Shown here piece by piece: positions 33,901 to 41,114 of a stretch of DNA of 64,000 nucleotides. Made by a program: the position numbers and the translations under genes. Source of the DNA: Armatimonadetes bacterium Uphvl-Ar1 (GTDB lineage: Bacteria; Armatimonadota; Fimbriimonadia; Fimbriimonadales; Fimbriimonadaceae); NCBI GenBank assembly GCA_002162075.1, contig CP021423.1, forward strand, positions 2,232,001-2,296,000. Direction: 5' to 3'. Under the pieces are notes generated by a model that did not search any database, was not told where the DNA came from, and was given only the letters and a program-made list of their open reading frames with translations. Positions within the stretch are counted from its first letter, which is position 1. The number at the start of each line of letters is the position of its first letter.

Positions 33901-34866
33901 TTAAAGTTGATAAGTCCGCCGCTCGGTAGTTCCGAACATCGTTCGATCAATTAGTTTCAACCCGTCCAGACCACCCCAGCCCCCATCCCATACTAATCCT
34001 TCTCCAAACTCCATGTCACCAACATAAAGCACCAACTCATTTCCAACCCCCAAAGTCAAAAACCGCCGCAATGTGTCCGCTCCGCCTTCCACCAAAACGC
34101 CGCGAACTCCTCGCTCATCCAAAATTTTCAATATCCCATCCGGACTCAAATTCGCCCCGTGAAATTGATCTAACCAGAGTGTCTCAGCGGAATCATCAAA
34201 CACTCGCTCCTGGCCCGTCAACCGGTGCCAAGGGTCAACAATGACTCGGAGCGGCTGATTCACCACACCCGGAATTCGCGCTGTCAATCGGGGATTGTCC
34301 GCCAAAACCGTTCCTCGCCCGACCAAAACGCTCCCCCGCTCCGCCCGTAATCGATGAGCGTCCAGCCGCGCTTCTTCCGAGCTAATCCACTGGCTGGTCC
34401 CGTCGGGTCTTGCCAAAAATCCATCCCTGGTGATCGCTGCCTTCAAAGTGACATAAGGCTTCTTGAACTCCACCGAGTACAAGAACTGGTGATTCATTGC
34501 CCTAGCTTCTTCCTCAAGTACCCCGGTATCAACTTCAATCCCCGCTGCCAAAAGCGCCCCCGCACCTCCCCTTGCCTTCTCAAATGGATCGCGAACGGCA
34601 AAAACCACCCGACTCACCCCCGCCTCAATCAATGCCACAGAACAAGGGCCAGTCCGCCCCGTATGATTGCACGGTTCCAAAGTGACATAAGCAGTTGCCC
34701 CCCTCGCAGAATCACATTGGGATAATGCGACAACTTCTGCATGTGGTCCCCCTGCATGGTCATGAAATCCCTCCCCAATCACGACCCCGTCACGAACTAA
34801 AACACACCCAACCCTGGGATTCGGTGCCGGAAATCCCCCTCGCGCTAGCTCAATCGCCCGCGCCAT
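33901..34866 (-). CDS. ribD: Bifunctional riboflavin biosynthesis deaminase/reductase RibD
   Basis: Two steps of riboflavin synthesis: deamination of the pyrimidine from GTP cyclohydrolase II, then reduction of the ribosyl group by NADPH. Residues 1 to about 145 are the CMP/dCMP-type deaminase: PNPRVGCVLV, zinc His/Glu in GGPHAEVVAL and Cys pair in TLEPCNHTGRTGPC. About 145-321 is the reductase: KPYVTLKAAITRDGFLA, SQWISS, VGRGTVLADNPRLTAR and LVEGGADTLRRF. The ATG at 34866 gives MARAIELARGG; no earlier start codon is available, so the N-terminus is a few residues shorter than usual. ribE/BA/H are not nearby. The preceding gene ends 10 bases upstream. Confidence 0.95.
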   Translation of the reverse strand: MARAIELARGGFPAPNPRVGCVLVRDGVVIGEGFHDHAGGPHAEVVALSQCDSARGATAYVTLEPCNHTGRTGPCSVALIEAGVSRVVFAVRDPFEKARGGAGALLAAGIEVDTGVLEEEARAMNHQFLYSVEFKKPYVTLKAAITRDGFLARPDGTSQWISSEEARLDAHRLRAERGSVLVGRGTVLADNPRLTARIPGVVNQPLRVIVDPWHRLTGQERVFDDSAETLWLDQFHGANLSPDGILKILDERGVRGVLVEGGADTLRRFLTLGVGNELVLYVGDMEFGEGLVWDGGWGGLDGLKLIDRTMFGTTERRTYQL

Positions 34867-34876
34867 AAACTGGATA

Positions 34877-35269
34877 TCAGCTTCGCGGGACGTCGTCTTC
34901 CTCCGGCCAATCCTCGGGGTTTACAGGAAGATCAGCTTTCAAACCATCACTCTCTTCCCGCTGATCCTTCAAACTAAAATCTTGCTCCTTATGATCAGTC
35001 AAACTCCCCTCTACAAACGTCTTCATATTCCGTTCAGCTTCTTCCTTGAGGTTCCGCGTCGTCTGCCGCAAAACCAAAAGTGCGCAGACAATCGCGGTGA
35101 TCATCACTGCAAAAATCGTGAGGGTATAGGTTCCAAATTGCAACGCATAAACCGCCAATTCTCGCTCGCTTGACCCCTTGGGCGGTTGCCGCTGCATCAT
35201 GAACGGAATCCCGCACAACAACGCCACCCCAAATATCATCAACCCAGTCGTAAAAGTTTTTAGACGCAT
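34877..35269 (-). CDS. Two-TM membrane protein, 130 aa
   Basis: Start at 35269 (MRLKTFTTGLMIFGVALLCG), which overlaps the rpe stop by ten bases; the longer frame to 35359 would bury rpe's end. Two membrane segments (about 8-24 and 46-69) are separated by a short loop (MMQRQPPKGSSERELAVYAL). They are followed by an acidic, charged C-terminal tail (RNLKEEAERNMKTFVEGSLT, NPEDWPEEDDVPRS). No family is recognised. It lies between rpe and ribD and could be cotranscribed with the kinase-like gene upstream; the function is unknown. Confidence 0.65.
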   Translation of the reverse strand: MRLKTFTTGLMIFGVALLCGIPFMMQRQPPKGSSERELAVYALQFGTYTLTIFAVMITAIVCALLVLRQTTRNLKEEAERNMKTFVEGSLTDHKEQDFSLKDQREESDGLKADLPVNPEDWPEEDDVPRS

Positions 35270-35904
35270 TCCCGCCTCAGCTCTGCTATACCTTCGGAAA
35301 TAGAATTCGCCCTCATCAGGTAGCTTCCAGTAACAAAATCTGTTGCCCCTGATTTCCAAAGTCCGCGAATCGTCGTTGGATCAACCCCTCCATCAACCTG
35401 AATTCGCAATTGAGGCCGAGCCAATCTGATCGCCGCAACCTTATCCAAACAACTCTCAATAAACTTCTGACCTCCCCAACCCGGGTTCACCGTCATCACT
35501 AAGGCCAAGTCCATAACATCATAAAGCGGTTCCAAAACCGCCACCGACGTTCCCGGATTGATTGCAACCCCAGCTTGGATTCCTCGTCCTCTCAACTCCT
35601 GGCACAGCCGATGCGCATGGGGCGCAACTTCGGCATGGAAGATGATTCGCTTACACCCCGCTTCGATAAAAGCATCAAAGTGATTCTCCGGTGTCAGAGT
35701 CATCAGGTGAGCTTCCAACGGAATTTGAACCTGCCCCCCTAAACTCTTTGCCAAATCCGCACCAAACGTAATCGGCGGCACAAACTGCCCGTCCATCACA
35801 TCCAAATGGATCCAATCCGCTCCTCCTGCTTCCATCTTTACCACCGGATTCAGGAATCCCGCCGGATCGCAACTCAATATTGATGGGCAAATTTTGACCT
35901 CCAT
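35260..35904 (-). CDS. rpe: Ribulose-phosphate 3-epimerase
   Basis: A 214-residue TIM-barrel enzyme of the pentose phosphate pathway, interconverting ribulose 5-phosphate and xylulose 5-phosphate. Motifs: CPSILSCDP, the metal His/Asp in WIHLDVMDGQFVPPITFG, EAHLM, TVNPGWGGQKFI and VDGGVDPTTI. Start at ATG 35904, overlapping the TGA of the pseudokinase gene (TGATG); one codon upstream is a GTG. Cotranscription with the PASTA protein gene is typical, since rpe and PASTA-kinase genes are neighbours in many Gram-positive and related genomes (prkC-rsgA-rpe). The rsgA gene is absent. Confidence 0.95.
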   Translation of the reverse strand: MEVKICPSILSCDPAGFLNPVVKMEAGGADWIHLDVMDGQFVPPITFGADLAKSLGGQVQIPLEAHLMTLTPENHFDAFIEAGCKRIIFHAEVAPHAHRLCQELRGRGIQAGVAINPGTSVAVLEPLYDVMDLALVMTVNPGWGGQKFIESCLDKVAAIRLARPQLRIQVDGGVDPTTIRGLWKSGATDFVTGSYLMRANSISEGIAELRRECV

Positions 35905-37667
35905 CACTCCTCTTCCTTTTCTTCCTCTGGTTTAGCCGTCATCTGTTCGACAAGCTCACCATCAAAAAACACTCGGATCAAAAGCTCATCACCAACCCAT
36001 CGCACTCTCTCGTCCACTTCTTGTCCGGCAATCATCACTTGCTCAAACAGTGTTTTGGTGCCTTGATCGTCCGTAACGTCAATCCGCACCACAACATCCC
36101 GGCCCACATCATCCGGAATCGTGAACTTGACTCGATTGGTGTGCCAATCCTTGCTCCGCACATTCCCCACGCTCCGATTCCCATTGCTCACCTTCAGCCG
36201 GATTCTAGTAAATCGTTCAACTTTCTTTCTTGCTTCCGGAACCTGAGAAACAATCAACCCTTCTTCTAATTCCCGATCACGAACCAACTCAATATCTGTA
36301 TCGTTCAGTTCAAGGTTTAAGGTGCCGGCAAGTCGCCGAGCGTCTTCAACTGTTCTGCCCCGAAAATCTGGAATCTCAACAAATCTAGACCCTTTGCTGA
36401 CAACCGCTTCGACTTTCGATCCCTTCCGAATCTCCTCGCCAGCCGCCGGAATCGTTGAGATAACGGCTCCCTCTGCATGTGTCTCGCTCTCCTCCCGTCG
36501 CCCCTCCCGCAGAACCAATCCCAAGTTAGAAAGTTCTTCTCTGGCTTCTGCAATCTGTTTGTCCGCAATATTAGGTACAGCCAACGTCTCGGGCTTCTGG
36601 GAGTTAAAGAAAATCCAACTTCCAACAAATCCCAAGAAGACAATCAATATCAAGTAGAACAGCCACGCCAACCACACTGGCATACCATCTGACTTCTCCT
36701 GATCCTTCTTAACCTTCTCCTTTTTCTTCTTCACTTTTGGTGTATCTTGCGGTTCCCCATCAACTGCGTTGAGCGCGGGCGCGACCGATTCCGCTTCTTC
36801 CGTACTCACCGATCCCTGAATCGGCCAATTGATCTTCTTGCCAAACCTCAATGCGTCCTGGACCGCTTTCAGATCATTCAGCAAATCCTGAGCCGACCCA
36901 TACCGTCGCCTCGGATTTTTATCCATACATTTCTTAATGATCTCGTCCAAAGCCATCGGCACCGTTGCCGCGACCAGTCGAAGAGATGGATACGGATCAT
37001 TCGCATGCTTCGCCGCCATCGCCTGTGCCCCATCTGCAAAATAGGGCGAGCGTCCAACCAAAACCTGCCACATCAAAACCCCTAGCGCATATAGATCGCT
37101 CTGTGCCGTCGGCATATCCCCTGCCGATACTTCCGGAGCTAAGTAAGGAGCCATCTGGCCATGAACCGCGACCGCAAGACTTCCATCCTGGCCATAAGCC
37201 CGCCACATTCCCGGGAGCAAAAGCTTCGCTCCATCATTACTCGTCGACAAAACTGTCCTCGGCGAAATATCTCCGTGAACAATATCCGCACCATGGAGAG
37301 CCTTCAACCCTTCACACAATTCAATCGCCATAGATACGGCTGCCGGCACACTCAAACTCGATAGCCGCCGCAATCTGGACTCCAAAACCGATCCAGGGCT
37401 GTAAGCTGAGACAATATAGAACCCATTCGACTCCTGCTGAGCCAACTCCAATCGCTCCACTCCCGGATGATTCACCGACTTCAACCGCACAATCAGAGCA
37501 TTCACTTCCCGAACAAAATTGTCGTTTCTCGGCTCAGTGCCAGAAATACCTCTTACGAAAAAATTCTTATCCGTGCCCTTCTCCGTTGATTTATAGAGAT
37601 CGTAGAGCGCGTCCGACCCAACTTCTTCAACGAGCTTATACTTGCCTCCGATCTCTTGACCAATCAT
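35904..37667 (-). CDS. PASTA-domain Ser/Thr protein kinase homologue, probable pseudokinase
   Basis: A 587-residue membrane protein with the layout of PknB/PrkC: kinase fold (about 8-270), a Lys-rich juxtamembrane stretch (KKKKEKVKKDQ), one TM (331-354), and two PASTA repeats (about 362-426 and 427-495), then a beta domain. Key kinase residues are altered: the Gly-rich loop is VGSDALYDL, the VAIK Lys is Arg (FVRGIS, position 39), and HRDxxxxN is HGDISPRT (Asp 133 kept, Asn replaced by Thr 138). The DFG motif is missing (LPGMWR at 151-156), while APE (177-179) is kept. It therefore probably binds rather than phosphorylates. PASTA repeats normally sense muropeptides or beta-lactams. Operon with aroKB, rpe. 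Confidence 0.85.
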   Translation of the reverse strand: MIGQEIGGKYKLVEEVGSDALYDLYKSTEKGTDKNFFVRGISGTEPRNDNFVREVNALIVRLKSVNHPGVERLELAQQESNGFYIVSAYSPGSVLESRLRRLSSLSVPAAVSMAIELCEGLKALHGADIVHGDISPRTVLSTSNDGAKLLLPGMWRAYGQDGSLAVAVHGQMAPYLAPEVSAGDMPTAQSDLYALGVLMWQVLVGRSPYFADGAQAMAAKHANDPYPSLRLVAATVPMALDEIIKKCMDKNPRRRYGSAQDLLNDLKAVQDALRFGKKINWPIQGSVSTEEAESVAPALNAVDGEPQDTPKVKKKKEKVKKDQEKSDGMPVWLAWLFYLILIVFLGFVGSWIFFNSQKPETLAVPNIADKQIAEAREELSNLGLVLREGRREESETHAEGAVISTIPAAGEEIRKGSKVEAVVSKGSRFVEIPDFRGRTVEDARRLAGTLNLELNDTDIELVRDRELEEGLIVSQVPEARKKVERFTRIRLKVSNGNRSVGNVRSKDWHTNRVKFTIPDDVGRDVVVRIDVTDDQGTKTLFEQVMIAGQEVDERVRWVGDELLIRVFFDGELVEQMTAKPEEEKEEE

Positions 37668-37885
37668 GCTTCTTCCTCAGACGGATCATCCTCTTTGCTT
37701 GGCACAAATGCCAACCCCACAACCGCAAGTAACAGAACTAGCGAAAGCATTGGAACGGGAGACGATTCGATCCTCGCCGAATACTCTGCCGCCGTTCCCC
37801 CAAAATATGCCGACAACGATGCTAAGTAACCTCCAACGAGCAACAATCCCGTCACGCTCGCCACGACCAATCGCATCAAGTCCAT
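37664..37885 (-). CDS. Two-TM membrane protein, 73 aa
   Basis: A small protein with two hydrophobic segments (about 5-25 and 46-62) and an acidic tail (VPSKEDDPSEEEA). The ATG overlaps the aroB end by ten bases, and its stop overlaps the ATG of the PASTA gene by four bases (ATGA). This tight double coupling argues that it is a real gene and is made together with the PASTA pseudokinase; a small partner or stabiliser of that membrane protein is possible (inference). No family is recognised. Confidence 0.65.
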   Translation of the reverse strand: MDLMRLVVASVTGLLLVGGYLASLSAYFGGTAAEYSARIESSPVPMLSLVLLLAVVGLAFVPSKEDDPSEEEA

Positions 37886-38904
37886 AAGTCCGCCAAAACC
37901 GACTGAACCATGTCTGGTTCAACGCCGTGGCATAGTTTACACTCGCCCGGTACTGTTACCAGACTCAGACTCAGTCCATCGCCAATATTCTTCTTATCCC
38001 CCATCATCAAATCAACGAGGAGATTCAAATCAACCTGACCCTTCGGTCGCACAGGTAACCCATAGAGGTCAAAAACTTCGGCCACTTCAAGCGGATCTAT
38101 TTGCGAAATACCGGCTCGATAAGCAATGGCCGCCTCTGCGACCATCCCCATCGCAATTGCCTCGCCGTGAAGCAACTCGGTGTATCCATCAAGTGTTTCG
38201 AGGGCATGACCAACCGTATGCCCAAAGTTCAAGATTGCCCTAATTCCGCTTTTTTCCCCAAAATCAGCCTCAACTACGTCCCGCTTGATCGAAACACAGC
38301 GCGCCACCACTTCTCGAAGATCGCTGGATTCTAACGTCAATCGCTCAGCTTTGAGCCTGTCGAGAAGAGCAACATCCCAAATCCAACTGTATTTGATGAC
38401 CTCCGCCATTCCGTTCGTAAAATGTTCCGGCGGCAACGTATTCAGAAAATCAGTGCTCAGCCGAACTTCCTTTGGGTTATGAAATGCACCCAGCAGGTTC
38501 TTTCCGTGCCTAAGGTCAATCCCCACCTTCCCTCCCACCGAACTATCAACCATTGCTAAAAGCGAAGTCGGGACCTGCACAAATTCAACTCCTCGGTGAA
38601 CCGTCGCTGCAACAAACCCCGCTAAATCTCCCACGACCCCACCACCAACCGCCCAGACAACGCCGTTTCTTTTCAAGCCTAAGGACAAAACTTGATCGAC
38701 TACGGAAAGGTAGACCTCTGAAGATTTGCTCGATTCTCCGGCCTCAATCACAACGAGACTTTCAGTTGAAAAGCAATCCTTATAAATGGAGTGCAGATTC
38801 GAGTCTGTGATGACGACCCCGGAGCGGTTTATTCCATCCCATGTTGCATCACTCGACAAAAAGCGAACATCATATCCGGATGCTCCTCCAACTTTAATGT
38901 CCAT
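37876..38904 (-). CDS. aroB: 3-dehydroquinate synthase
   Basis: Second step of the shikimate pathway: DAHP to 3-dehydroquinate with NAD+ and a divalent metal. Start at 38904 (MDIKVGGASGYDV), giving 342 residues. NAD and active-site motifs: AVGGGVVGDLAGFVAATVHR, PTSLLAMVDSSVGGKVGID, HNPKEVRLSTDFLNTLP, metal Glu in GMAEVIKY, and the metal His in LNFGHTVGHALE and LLHGEAIAMGM. It overlaps aroK by 11 bases. The aroK-aroB pair directly follows the pil operon, an order known from proteobacteria (pilMNOPQ-aroKB). Confidence 0.95.
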   Translation of the reverse strand: MDIKVGGASGYDVRFLSSDATWDGINRSGVVITDSNLHSIYKDCFSTESLVVIEAGESSKSSEVYLSVVDQVLSLGLKRNGVVWAVGGGVVGDLAGFVAATVHRGVEFVQVPTSLLAMVDSSVGGKVGIDLRHGKNLLGAFHNPKEVRLSTDFLNTLPPEHFTNGMAEVIKYSWIWDVALLDRLKAERLTLESSDLREVVARCVSIKRDVVEADFGEKSGIRAILNFGHTVGHALETLDGYTELLHGEAIAMGMVAEAAIAYRAGISQIDPLEVAEVFDLYGLPVRPKGQVDLNLLVDLMMGDKKNIGDGLSLSLVTVPGECKLCHGVEPDMVQSVLADLWT

Positions 38905-39406
38905 CGAGAGCCACCCGGATTCTCTCCGCAATCACTTCAATCGGCTGCTCATCTACCTCAACGCGGACGTCTGCCTGCTCATACAGGGGACGCCGAGAAG
39001 CATAAAGATCACGCAACTTTGTTTCCCAATTATCTGTCTGCAACAGAGGTCTCTTGCGACTCGATTGATCGAGACGAGCTTCCAAAAGCTCAACTGGAAC
39101 ATCGAGGAAAACACTCCGACCGAGACGGGCGAATTCAACCCAATTCTCTGGTCGCAAAACAATCCCCCCACCCGTGGCTAGCACGCGTCCCTCCAAATCC
39201 ATATTCTTCAAAATCGAAGTTTCATGGTATCGAAACGCTTCTTCACCATAAAGTTCAAACAACTGTGGAATCGGTCGACCAAGCCTGTGTTCAAGCATCA
39301 TATCCGTATCTTGAAACGGCACTCCAAGCAAATCAGCAAGTGCCCGACCAACCGTGCTCTTACCACTGCCCATCATTCCAATCAGGATTACTGATTCCAT
39401 CTTCAT
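38894..39406 (-). CDS. aroK: Shikimate kinase
   Basis: Phosphorylates shikimate at the 3-OH with ATP. From ATG 39406 (MKMESVILIGMMGSGKSTVG) 170 residues, normal for AroK; ATG 39400 is an alternative. Walker A GMMGSGKST, the substrate Asp in FQDTDMMLEHRLGRPI, GGG in LATGGGIVLR and the LID Arg in SSRKRPLL are all present. A terminator at 39415-39448 sits immediately before it, so it either reads through from pilQ or has its own promoter. The frame extending up to 39580 is the reverse of the pilQ end and should be ignored. Confidence 0.95.
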   Translation of the reverse strand: MKMESVILIGMMGSGKSTVGRALADLLGVPFQDTDMMLEHRLGRPIPQLFELYGEEAFRYHETSILKNMDLEGRVLATGGGIVLRPENWVEFARLGRSVFLDVPVELLEARLDQSSRKRPLLQTDNWETKLRDLYASRRPLYEQADVRVEVDEQPIEVIAERIRVALDGH

Positions 39407-39414
39407 AAATCCGA

Positions 39415-39448
39415 TAAAAAAGCAGCGGCAACCAAAGGTCGCCGCTGC
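39415..39448 (-). terminator. Terminator between pilQ and aroK
   Basis: Plus-strand GCAGCGGCAACC (39422-39433), AAA, GGTCGCCGCTGC (39437-39448) pair with one mismatch; on the minus strand seven bases of T-rich sequence follow (TTTTTT then A). Located 23 bases after the pilQ stop and just before aroK, so it should separate or attenuate the two. Confidence 0.85.
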
Positions 39449-39470
39449 CCGTTTTGACCGTCCTTCGAGC

Positions 39471-41114
39471 CTACGGAATTCCGAAGCCCGGCGTTCCTTC
39501 GTCAACAATCTTCGGAGTAACGAAGATGATGAGTTCAGAAGAACTTTGTCGGGATTCTTTCTTTCGGAACAACTGGCCAATAACCGGCAAGTCGCTCAAA
39601 AGCGGAATCCGATTTTGGTTGTAGGAATCTTGCTTAGTGGTCAATCCACCAAGCGCAACTGTTTCTCCGTCCTTAACTCGCATCGCAACGTTGATCGTTT
39701 GGAACGCAGTTTCGGGGAACTGCTGACCATCCGGACTGGTTCGGAAACCAGTGATATTCGTGATCGTCGGCGACAAGGTCATAGTGATCGTGTTGTCACC
39801 ATTGATCCGAGGTCGAACTGCCAAGGTTGAGTTCAAGTTCAGCGGAATCGGAACCGTCGTCGTGTTTGTAACGCCGTTGCCAGAAACAACGTTGTTGGTC
39901 ACAAAGATGAACGTTTGGGTTCCTGCCGTCATGACGGCTGTTTGGTTATTCAGTGTTCGAACGATCGGTGCAGTGACGACTCGACCGTCGCCATCCGAAA
40001 GCAATGCTCGGAGTCGCATTGAAACGTTACCAGTTGCGTAGTTCAAGAAGACAGGATCGGTTGCGTTTGCAAATCGACCCGGTGCAACTCCAGCAAACAC
40101 TCCACCGCGCTCGTAGTTCCAGTCAATACCAAGACTCTTGTCAATGCTTCGAGTCGTCGTCACGAATTCTACTTTGACCGTAACTTGCTTCGGAGCCTTG
40201 TCAATTCGGCTCAAGATGTCAAGCAATTCTTGGTAGGCCTGGCTCGTGCCCCGGAAAATCAATTCGTTTGTCGCCGGGTTGTATGTAAGATCGGTAGTTC
40301 CCGCCGGAAGCAAACCTTGACCACCTGCGTTAGCACCTGCGACCGATGCACCGCCACCTTGCTGACCGCCACCGAGTCCTCCTCCATTTTGCCCTCCGCC
40401 AGCTTGTCCACCGCCGCCTAAAGCACCGCCGCCGCCGCCGCCGCCGCCACCGCCGCCAGCTCCCCGCTGACCCGCCGAACCACCCGGCAATTGCAGTCCT
40501 CCATCATTTGAGGGTGAATCATTAATGGCCCCAAAGGAACGATTTTCGTTGCTCAAGCGATTCCGATTGATAAAATCGGAGGGAGCACCAAAAGTCGAAC
40601 TGTCCATGCTCTGCGGATTTGACCGTCGGGCCAGATCCCACATTTCTTCAAAGACTCGATCCGGATTCTTGACCGCTCCATCAACCAAAAGATCGATGAT
40701 ATCTCTTGGGTCAGCTTGCTGAACCTTAATTTCCCGAATGATGAGCCGATCGTTATCAACCTGAGCATTGAGGGGTAAAGCTTCGCGCTTCGTACCGAAG
40801 TAGATCACGAAGACTCCATCTTCGTTTCGCTCAGCATAGCCACCTGCGGCTTGGCAGAGATACTTGATTGCTGTTTCCGCTGAAACATCATCCAGAGACA
40901 AATTGATCTTCTTGAACTCACCAGCATTTTGATTGCTAATAACAAACTGCAGTCCAGTTTGCTGCGAGAGCAAACGAGTTGCTGTCAAAAGATCAGCATC
41001 TTTCAAGTAAAGATCAACCTTCGTATCGAGTGCTGAGCTTTGGGCAAAAGACAATGCTGCAACCGCACCCAAGCTGAGTGTCAAAACCGACTTTGTGAAA
41101 ATTCCTTTCTTCAT
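39471..41114 (-). CDS. pilQ: Type IV pilus secretin PilQ
   Basis: Outer-membrane secretin pore for the pilus. Start at 41114 (MKKGIFTKSVLTLSLGAVAA, signal peptide ending AQS), 547 residues; the longer frame to 41351 is the reverse of the upstream gene's Gly-rich tail. Order: STN/N0 domain (about 28-105, LYLKDADLLTATRLLSQQTG), an N1-type region (QADPRDIIDLLVD), a very Gly-rich linker (about 190-235), then secretin_N (LTYNPATNELIFRGTSQAYQ) and the secretin core with TAPIVRTLNNQTAVMTAGTQ, VKDGETVALGGLT and IPLLSDLPVIGQLFR. The Gly-rich insertion between modules is unusual. Last gene of the pilM-Q operon. Confidence 0.94.
   Translation of the reverse strand: MKKGIFTKSVLTLSLGAVAALSFAQSSALDTKVDLYLKDADLLTATRLLSQQTGLQFVISNQNAGEFKKINLSLDDVSAETAIKYLCQAAGGYAERNEDGVFVIYFGTKREALPLNAQVDNDRLIIREIKVQQADPRDIIDLLVDGAVKNPDRVFEEMWDLARRSNPQSMDSSTFGAPSDFINRNRLSNENRSFGAINDSPSNDGGLQLPGGSAGQRGAGGGGGGGGGGGALGGGGQAGGGQNGGGLGGGQQGGGASVAGANAGGQGLLPAGTTDLTYNPATNELIFRGTSQAYQELLDILSRIDKAPKQVTVKVEFVTTTRSIDKSLGIDWNYERGGVFAGVAPGRFANATDPVFLNYATGNVSMRLRALLSDGDGRVVTAPIVRTLNNQTAVMTAGTQTFIFVTNNVVSGNGVTNTTTVPIPLNLNSTLAVRPRINGDNTITMTLSPTITNITGFRTSPDGQQFPETAFQTINVAMRVKDGETVALGGLTTKQDSYNQNRIPLLSDLPVIGQLFRKKESRQSSSELIIFVTPKIVDEGTPGFGIP

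Follow-up and report, generated by a model that had tools for sequence, protein, structure and literature searches.

Can a PASTA receptor signal when the kinase domain it carries has lost most of its catalytic residues? PASTA kinases have been studied as cell-wall sensors that act via phosphorylation, and the PASTA repeats of known kinases (e.g., PknB) bind peptidoglycan or lipid II. The window considered here, a stretch of 64,000 nucleotides from the genome of Armatimonadetes bacterium Uphvl-Ar1 (contig CP021423.1, positions 2,232,001 to 2,296,000), encodes a protein of 587 residues that an initial annotation, made from the sequence alone, had described as a PASTA-domain pseudokinase.

Receptor Architecture and Gene Neighborhood

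The gene is an intact frame of 587 codons with an ATG start (Table 1). Above the Pfam cut-offs, its product is matched by kinase models (Pkinase, 80.4 bits; PK_Tyr_Ser-Thr, 83.6 bits) and by PASTA (80.8 bits, two repeats), and by nothing else. Together with a transmembrane helix identified by eye, these matches give the kinase domain, membrane anchor and PASTA repeats that define PASTA Ser/Thr kinases; the kinase fold, APE motif, transmembrane segment and two repeats described initially as retained are present, as judged from the Pfam matches, Glu179 of the APE motif in the alignment and the hydrophobic stretch. The full-length PASTA-kinase model NF033483 spans residues 3–553 at 266.4 bits, below its cut-off of 450, and the solved structures closest by sequence are of kinase domains that go by the names Stk1-type, StkP, and PknB. 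AlphaFold2 models built on five-row alignments reached a mean pLDDT of 56 for the full length and 40 for the kinase part, too poor for judging pocket occlusion or the placement of Trp155.

Table 1. Coordinates in the window of the receptor gene, its parts and its neighbors.
Feature	Position	Strand	Basis or remark
PASTA pseudokinase, 587 aa	35904–37667	−	kinase-like domain, transmembrane helix, two PASTA repeats, C-terminal beta domain
Kinase-like domain (Pfam Pkinase)	36879–37640	−	residues 10–263
Arg39 codon, replaces beta3 (VAIK) Lys	37551–37553	−	alignment
HGD (131–133) where HRD expected; catalytic Asp133 retained	37269–37277	−	alignment
Thr138 codon, replaces catalytic-loop Asn	37254–37256	−	alignment
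Leu-Pro-Gly (151–153) where DFG expected	37209–37217	−	alignment
Trp155 (DFG+2)	37203–37205	−	invariant in window's family (48/48) and sister family f5 (7/7)
Single transmembrane helix, ~residues 331–356	36600–36677	−	hydrophobic stretch in translation; helix in low-confidence model
PASTA repeat 1	36393–36578	−	Pfam
PASTA repeat 2	36183–36380	−	Pfam
C-terminal beta-rich domain, ~residues 505–578	35934–36155	−	low-confidence model; NF033483 match reaches 553
73-aa two-helix membrane protein, candidate partner	37664–37885	−	linked gene; helices by hydropathy
rpe, ribulose-phosphate 3-epimerase, housekeeping neighbor	35260–35907	−	Pfam, NCBIfam
aroB, 3-dehydroquinate synthase, start codon unsure	37876–38931	−	name from translation
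aroK, shikimate kinase, start codon unsure	38894–39580	−	name from translation
ribD-like gene, downstream of unit	33901–34866	−	tentative name
Small gene, 160 aa from TTG start, between rpe and ribD	34877–35359		two hydrophobic stretches by eye

The neighboring genes, of which we take three to be aroK, aroB, and ribD, follow an order found across the class Fimbriimonadia: aroK-aroB-[two-helix gene]-kinase-rpe-ribD. By their coordinates, aroB and the 73-residue gene overlap by 10 nt, and the 73-residue gene and rpe each overlap the kinase gene by 4 nt, which bears out the tight operon coupling proposed for both. Counting fragments, 72 class loci were compared: 65 have rpe as an adjacent gene, 63 have ribD, and 58 have aroB. 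Contig ends account for several of the misses, and aroB is not nearby in most rows of one genus of family f2. Neither Pfam nor NCBIfam gave a match for the small gene located between rpe and ribD, a counterpart of which lies downstream in 49 of the 72 loci. In Firmicutes the order is prpC-prkC-rsgA-rpe.

Loss of the Catalytic Residues

Motif positions were read after aligning the protein to 16 canonical PASTA kinases from its phylum. The alignment agrees with the initial annotation that the VAIK Lys has become Arg39 and the catalytic-loop Asn Thr138. The Gly-rich loop, which had been called lost, keeps its first Gly (Gly17) and lacks its second (Asp19). The Asp of DFG is indeed missing, but the aligned triplet is Leu151-Pro152-Gly153 and not the Pro-Gly-Met first read there. 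Three further changes emerged: HRD has become HGD with Asp133 kept, the catalytic-loop Lys is replaced by Ser135, and Leu58 stands in place of the alphaC Glu. Retained are Glu179 of APE, the alphaF Asp191, and Arg255, and the segment from LPG to APE is of canonical length. Asp133 is thus the sole survivor among the catalytic Lys, Asp, Asn, and DFG Asp, and two of the three residues used to recognize bacterial pseudokinases, by loss of at least one of VAIK Lys, HRD Asp, and DFG Asp, are gone. Because the Lys, alphaC Glu, loop Lys, Asn, and DFG Asp are all missing, established kinase biochemistry predicts that ordinary phosphate transfer by this protein is very unlikely, and its catalytic death appears well supported by the motifs.

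The named genomes that resemble the window most are of the Fimbriimonadaceae, the family in which it is placed. Orthologues were taken as best matches below 1e-30. Across the class, 111 of 113 genomes gave a match, 106 of them with the orthologue itself (table read by eye); five had the other kinase alone (G049, G086, G089, G091, and G112) and two had no match (G062 and G109). Five of these seven genomes are less than 90% complete, the exceptions being G086 and G049. In a search run without a positive-control genome, rpe had no match in the G049 or G086 assemblies and aroB none in G086; since G086 lacks matches to both, an assembly gap is the likely cause there. From the 106 genomes, 71 orthologue rows were aligned, the window's included, and 70 were counted after removal of L069, a fragment without the kinase domain. 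G090 carries two full-length copies (G090:C43:910-2673 and G090:C17:3196-4956), reflecting a duplication or a mixed assembly; one was aligned.

All 70 rows contain the kinase-like domain. Conservation of the losses had been proposed as a check, and in the window's family (n = 48) they are conserved: the beta3 position is Arg in 45 rows, Lys in two, and Gly in one, the alphaC Glu, loop Lys, and DFG Asp are each absent from every row, and the loop Asn persists in 27. The HRD position reads HGD in 44 rows, HGE in three, and HGH in one, so that the catalytic Asp remains in 44, with His131 and Gly132 in all 48. Close relatives with both VAIK and DFG intact, which would have spoken against a pseudokinase, were likewise sought: within the family, Lys recurs in those two rows and the DFG Asp in none, while more distant relatives in the order keep either one or the other. 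Family f5 (n = 7) has Arg, HGD, and the DFG Asp in all seven rows and the Asn in none, whereas f2 (n = 13) has Lys and HGD in all 13, the Asn in 12, and Gly in place of the DFG Asp throughout. In L066 (f3), FGR replaces HRD while Lys, Asn, and DFG are kept; L070 (f4) keeps Lys, HAD, Asn, and DFG. Altogether, a single one of the 70 rows has all of beta3 Lys, catalytic Asp, and DFG Asp; each of the other 69 is missing one or more. As far as residues can tell, members of the window's family are rightly called pseudokinases, and their loss of motifs appears derived and stepwise. Since Lys or DFG persists in the sister families, and the full set in L070, ATP binding or phosphorylation may survive in some orthologues.

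In the f2 orthologues L064 and L068, DFG has become GFG while Lys and Asp133 remain, and L064 also retains the Asn. CASK is a Mg-independent kinase that is active without the DFG Asp, and WNK is an active kinase with a moved Lys; by analogy, L064 and L068 may be active despite GFG.

Origin and Order of the Losses

NF033483 matched in all 251 genomes of the phylum searched. From the best-scoring matches of the 178 non-class genomes, 33 loci were hand-picked, roughly one per family, and comprised 16 canonical HRD kinases and 17 of an HGD type. The motifs of the HRD kinases are intact apart from a single alphaC Gln and a G-loop that is truncated in one row. Neither rpe nor aroB lies near any of them (two of the 16 are on contigs below 5 kb), and FHA-type genes lie near seven (L116, L117, L120, L122, L123, L124, and L127), a neighborhood unlike that of the HGD type. 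At the HGD-type loci, in the same order as in the window, rpe directly follows the kinase in 16 of 17 and aroB precedes it in 15 of 17; Lys, catalytic Asp, and DFG Asp are all kept in 15 of the 17 rows and the alphaC Glu in seven. Searching 27 genomes with an HGD query (E up to 1e-60; no match in six) gave no sign that possession of both types is common: in matching HRD genomes the query recovered the known HRD gene at its known place, with a second match in G179 only.

A quick maximum-likelihood tree of 103 rows, with motif columns left out and SH-aLRT as the only support, places the HGD rows on one side with the class rows nested within them, and one non-class row, L134, among the class branches. 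Support is below 80 for 32 of its 100 inner branches, which makes details of the loss order provisional. The window's family and f5 group together with support 100 and have Arg for Lys in common, the DFG Asp being absent afterwards across the window's family; in f2 the DFG Asp was lost on a separate branch, and in f3 the HRD Asp. The fewest changes required are three for the beta3 Lys, three for the DFG Asp, four for the catalytic Asp, and 13 for the loop Asn, apparent returns included (Lys in L023 and L046). Read from this tree, the decay appears to be a mosaic in which the Lys is gone from one family, the DFG Asp from a second, both from the window's family, and the HRD Asp from yet another.

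The gene for the two-helix protein can be followed in part. A BLAST-detectable relative is present at 41 of 72 class loci, and a plain hydropathy rule predicted an open reading frame with two helices in the 360 nt before the kinase at 50 of 69 class, seven of 17 non-class HGD, and one of 15 HRD loci, compared with 146 of 4000 stretches drawn at random from these loci. Allowing CTG starts and reading the aroB-kinase gap directly yielded further candidates; the gene is missing in L071 and most f2 rows. This distribution supports a link to the kinase that would be old but not universal.

Constraint on the Degenerate Domain

Between the window gene and its nearest relative, which is 99% identical in protein and comes from a second assembly, dN/dS is 0.016 over the whole gene (dS 0.57); for the kinase domain and PASTA taken separately it is 0.022 and 0.011, respectively. 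A second pair gave 0.026 and 0.013, and more distant pairs were saturated at synonymous sites. Loss by pseudogenization is ruled out by the whole-gene value and the conservation. Within the kinase domain of the window's family, conservation is lowest in the N-lobe, with a mean majority share of 0.46 compared with 0.67 in HRD kinases drawn from many families, whereas the stretch from P+1/APE to alphaF is equally conserved (0.72 vs. 0.73). Non-catalytic sites of the C-lobe and activation segment (Trp155, Tyr193, Gly196, Pro208, Pro237, Arg255, and Phe275) are invariant in all 48 rows. At the DFG+2 position, the 16 HRD kinases all have Ala and the window's family and f5 have Trp155; as an idea only, this residue could plug the pocket, like the aromatic residues in MviN.

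The strong constraint on the kinase-like domain argues that it still has a role, and because the ATP side is relaxed and the C-lobe kept, that role is suggested to be one of binding. Combined with the binding of ligands by PASTA repeats in known kinases, this pattern of constraint favors recruitment or allostery.

Probable Signaling through Binding Partners

The locus probably encodes a PASTA receptor with a pseudokinase domain that acts through binding partners and descends from an HGD-type PASTA kinase. We infer the catalytic inactivity itself, as well as the ligand, dimerization, partner, and output. The ancestor would have been a kinase of this type, present in many families of the phylum and encoded between aroB and rpe; in Fimbriimonadia, its ATP-handling residues would have decayed on separate branches while the C-lobe surface, transmembrane helix, and PASTA ectodomain stayed under selection. 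In the most likely mechanism, the two PASTA repeats would bind a peptidoglycan-type ligand in the periplasm, and the resulting dimerization or change of state would pass to the pseudokinase domain, which would recruit or allosterically regulate partner proteins without phosphorylating them. Candidate partners are the linked two-helix protein, which possibly takes part in such signaling, and/or a separate intact kinase.

A special case of this proposal, unlikely in so specific a form, is that the protein acts as a subunit regulating the only intact Hanks-type kinase of the genome, by binding it, being phosphorylated by it, or activating it. The 2.99 Mb genome, a single contig, holds exactly two Pkinase matches, the window gene and one with intact motifs (AVK, HRD..N, and DFG), and the phosphorylated pseudokinase MviN offers a precedent (PMC12599244). 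There is also one PP2C phosphatase match, directly upstream of which lies a gene with two apparent FHA domains (L115:436-2160; G000:C1 near 847000), and parts of phospho-Thr signaling therefore seem to persist in the genome. The genes for pseudokinase and intact kinase are unlinked, however, and in other classes FHA genes adjoin HRD PASTA kinases and not the pseudokinase locus. The initial annotation had suggested searching the rest of the genome for an active PASTA kinase; none was found, the second Pkinase match being without PASTA and PASTA matches being confined to the window gene. In 40 of 41 genomes searched, this one included, PASTA occurred twice, in the orthologue, and in no other protein apart from a third match in G016 that fell below the cut-off; G049 had no PASTA match.

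The intact-motif kinase (L001; G000:C1:201195-201890) is open for 373 residues, most relatives having ~550–610; the remainder lies in other frames within a Pro-rich linker with one or two frame breaks, real or due to assembly. One relative, L073, has a transmembrane segment and repeats resembling TPRs by eye.

Unusual catalysis or nucleotide binding would make different use of the same residues: Asp133 with a non-canonical ATP pocket around Arg39 might sustain a weak kinase or a transfer of the AMPylation or glutamylation type. What weighs most against a purely passive site is the retention of Asp133 in 44 of 48 rows, and invariant His131 and Gly132, the specific choice of Arg at beta3 (45 of 48), the modeled ATP binding of the DYD family with its beta3 Arg, and the new activities of SelO and SidJ (PMC12599244) point the same way. 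We regard such an activity as unlikely, given that the DFG Asp, alphaC Glu, and loop Lys are lost from all 48 rows and the loop Asn from 21, that the N-lobe is the least conserved region, and that the DYD family has a salt-bridging Asp and an Asn of its own where the window protein, with LPG and Thr138, has neither.

It is distinctly improbable that only the ectodomain and transmembrane helix matter, with the kinase-like domain a folded remnant that serves expression, membrane insertion, or dimerization and not signaling. Repeated, differing catalytic losses on separate branches and the relaxed N-lobe would be expected of a remnant, but a kinase-domain dN/dS about as low as that of the rest, the invariant C-lobe and activation-segment sites, and presence of the domain in every counted row would not. 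A pseudogene or an annotation or assembly artefact is a negligible prospect despite the frame breaks in the linker of the other kinase, in view of the intact frame, the near-identical copy in a second assembly, the low dN/dS, and orthologues in 106 of 113 class genomes.

Relation to Known Systems and Implications

With the Stk1/PrkC/PknB kinases (NF033483; 4eqm, 9ru3, and 3f61), the window protein shares the order kinase-transmembrane-PASTA-C-terminal domain and its locus the neighbor rpe; unlike them, it falls short of the model's cut-off, has lost the five residues listed above, and is encoded far from the genome's one PP2C match. Searches of the openly licensed PubMed Central literature found no PASTA-type pseudokinase. 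A 2025 review describes a handful of bacterial pseudokinase families besides EssB, SidJ, and SelO; no PASTA receptor is described in the sections consulted, and the word PASTA occurs once, in the reference list (PMC12599244). The MviN/MurJ pseudokinase of mycobacteria (ActPs3) is likewise a bacterial membrane pseudokinase with a cell-wall link and a role in recruitment; in M. tuberculosis it is phosphorylated by PknB and recruits FhaA (PMC12599244). There, however, the pseudokinase lies within MviN, has a hallmark activation-loop deletion, and is the target of a PASTA kinase, whereas here the PASTA receptor is itself the pseudokinase, with no MviN/MurJ part and no such deletion. DYD pseudokinases (PMC12599244) resemble the window protein in the beta3 Lys-to-Arg change, loss of the alphaC Glu, and membrane association, but the latter has LPG instead of DYD, has lost the Asn, and is from neither Actinobacteria nor Firmicutes. 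EssB/YukC is also a single-pass membrane pseudokinase with a scaffolding role, yet it is part of Type VII secretion (PMC12599244), and the window protein matches PASTA kinases by sequence.

More tentatively, the whole class Fimbriimonadia (Armatimonadota) may have made its sole PASTA receptor non-catalytic through stepwise, family-specific losses, with the two-helix protein as a conserved partner. A class that relies on a PASTA receptor without an ordinary kinase site can separate the scaffold role of the kinase fold from its role as an enzyme, and a receptor in sole copy makes for a readable knockout. L070, f5, f2, and the non-class HGD kinases form a series for dating the loss of ATP binding and of activity. 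If the class-wide proposal is true, Fimbriimonadia would offer a natural series whose starting point is an HGD kinase, probably active, and whose end is a pseudokinase that is fully degraded, as well as an instance of PASTA signaling by binding alone.
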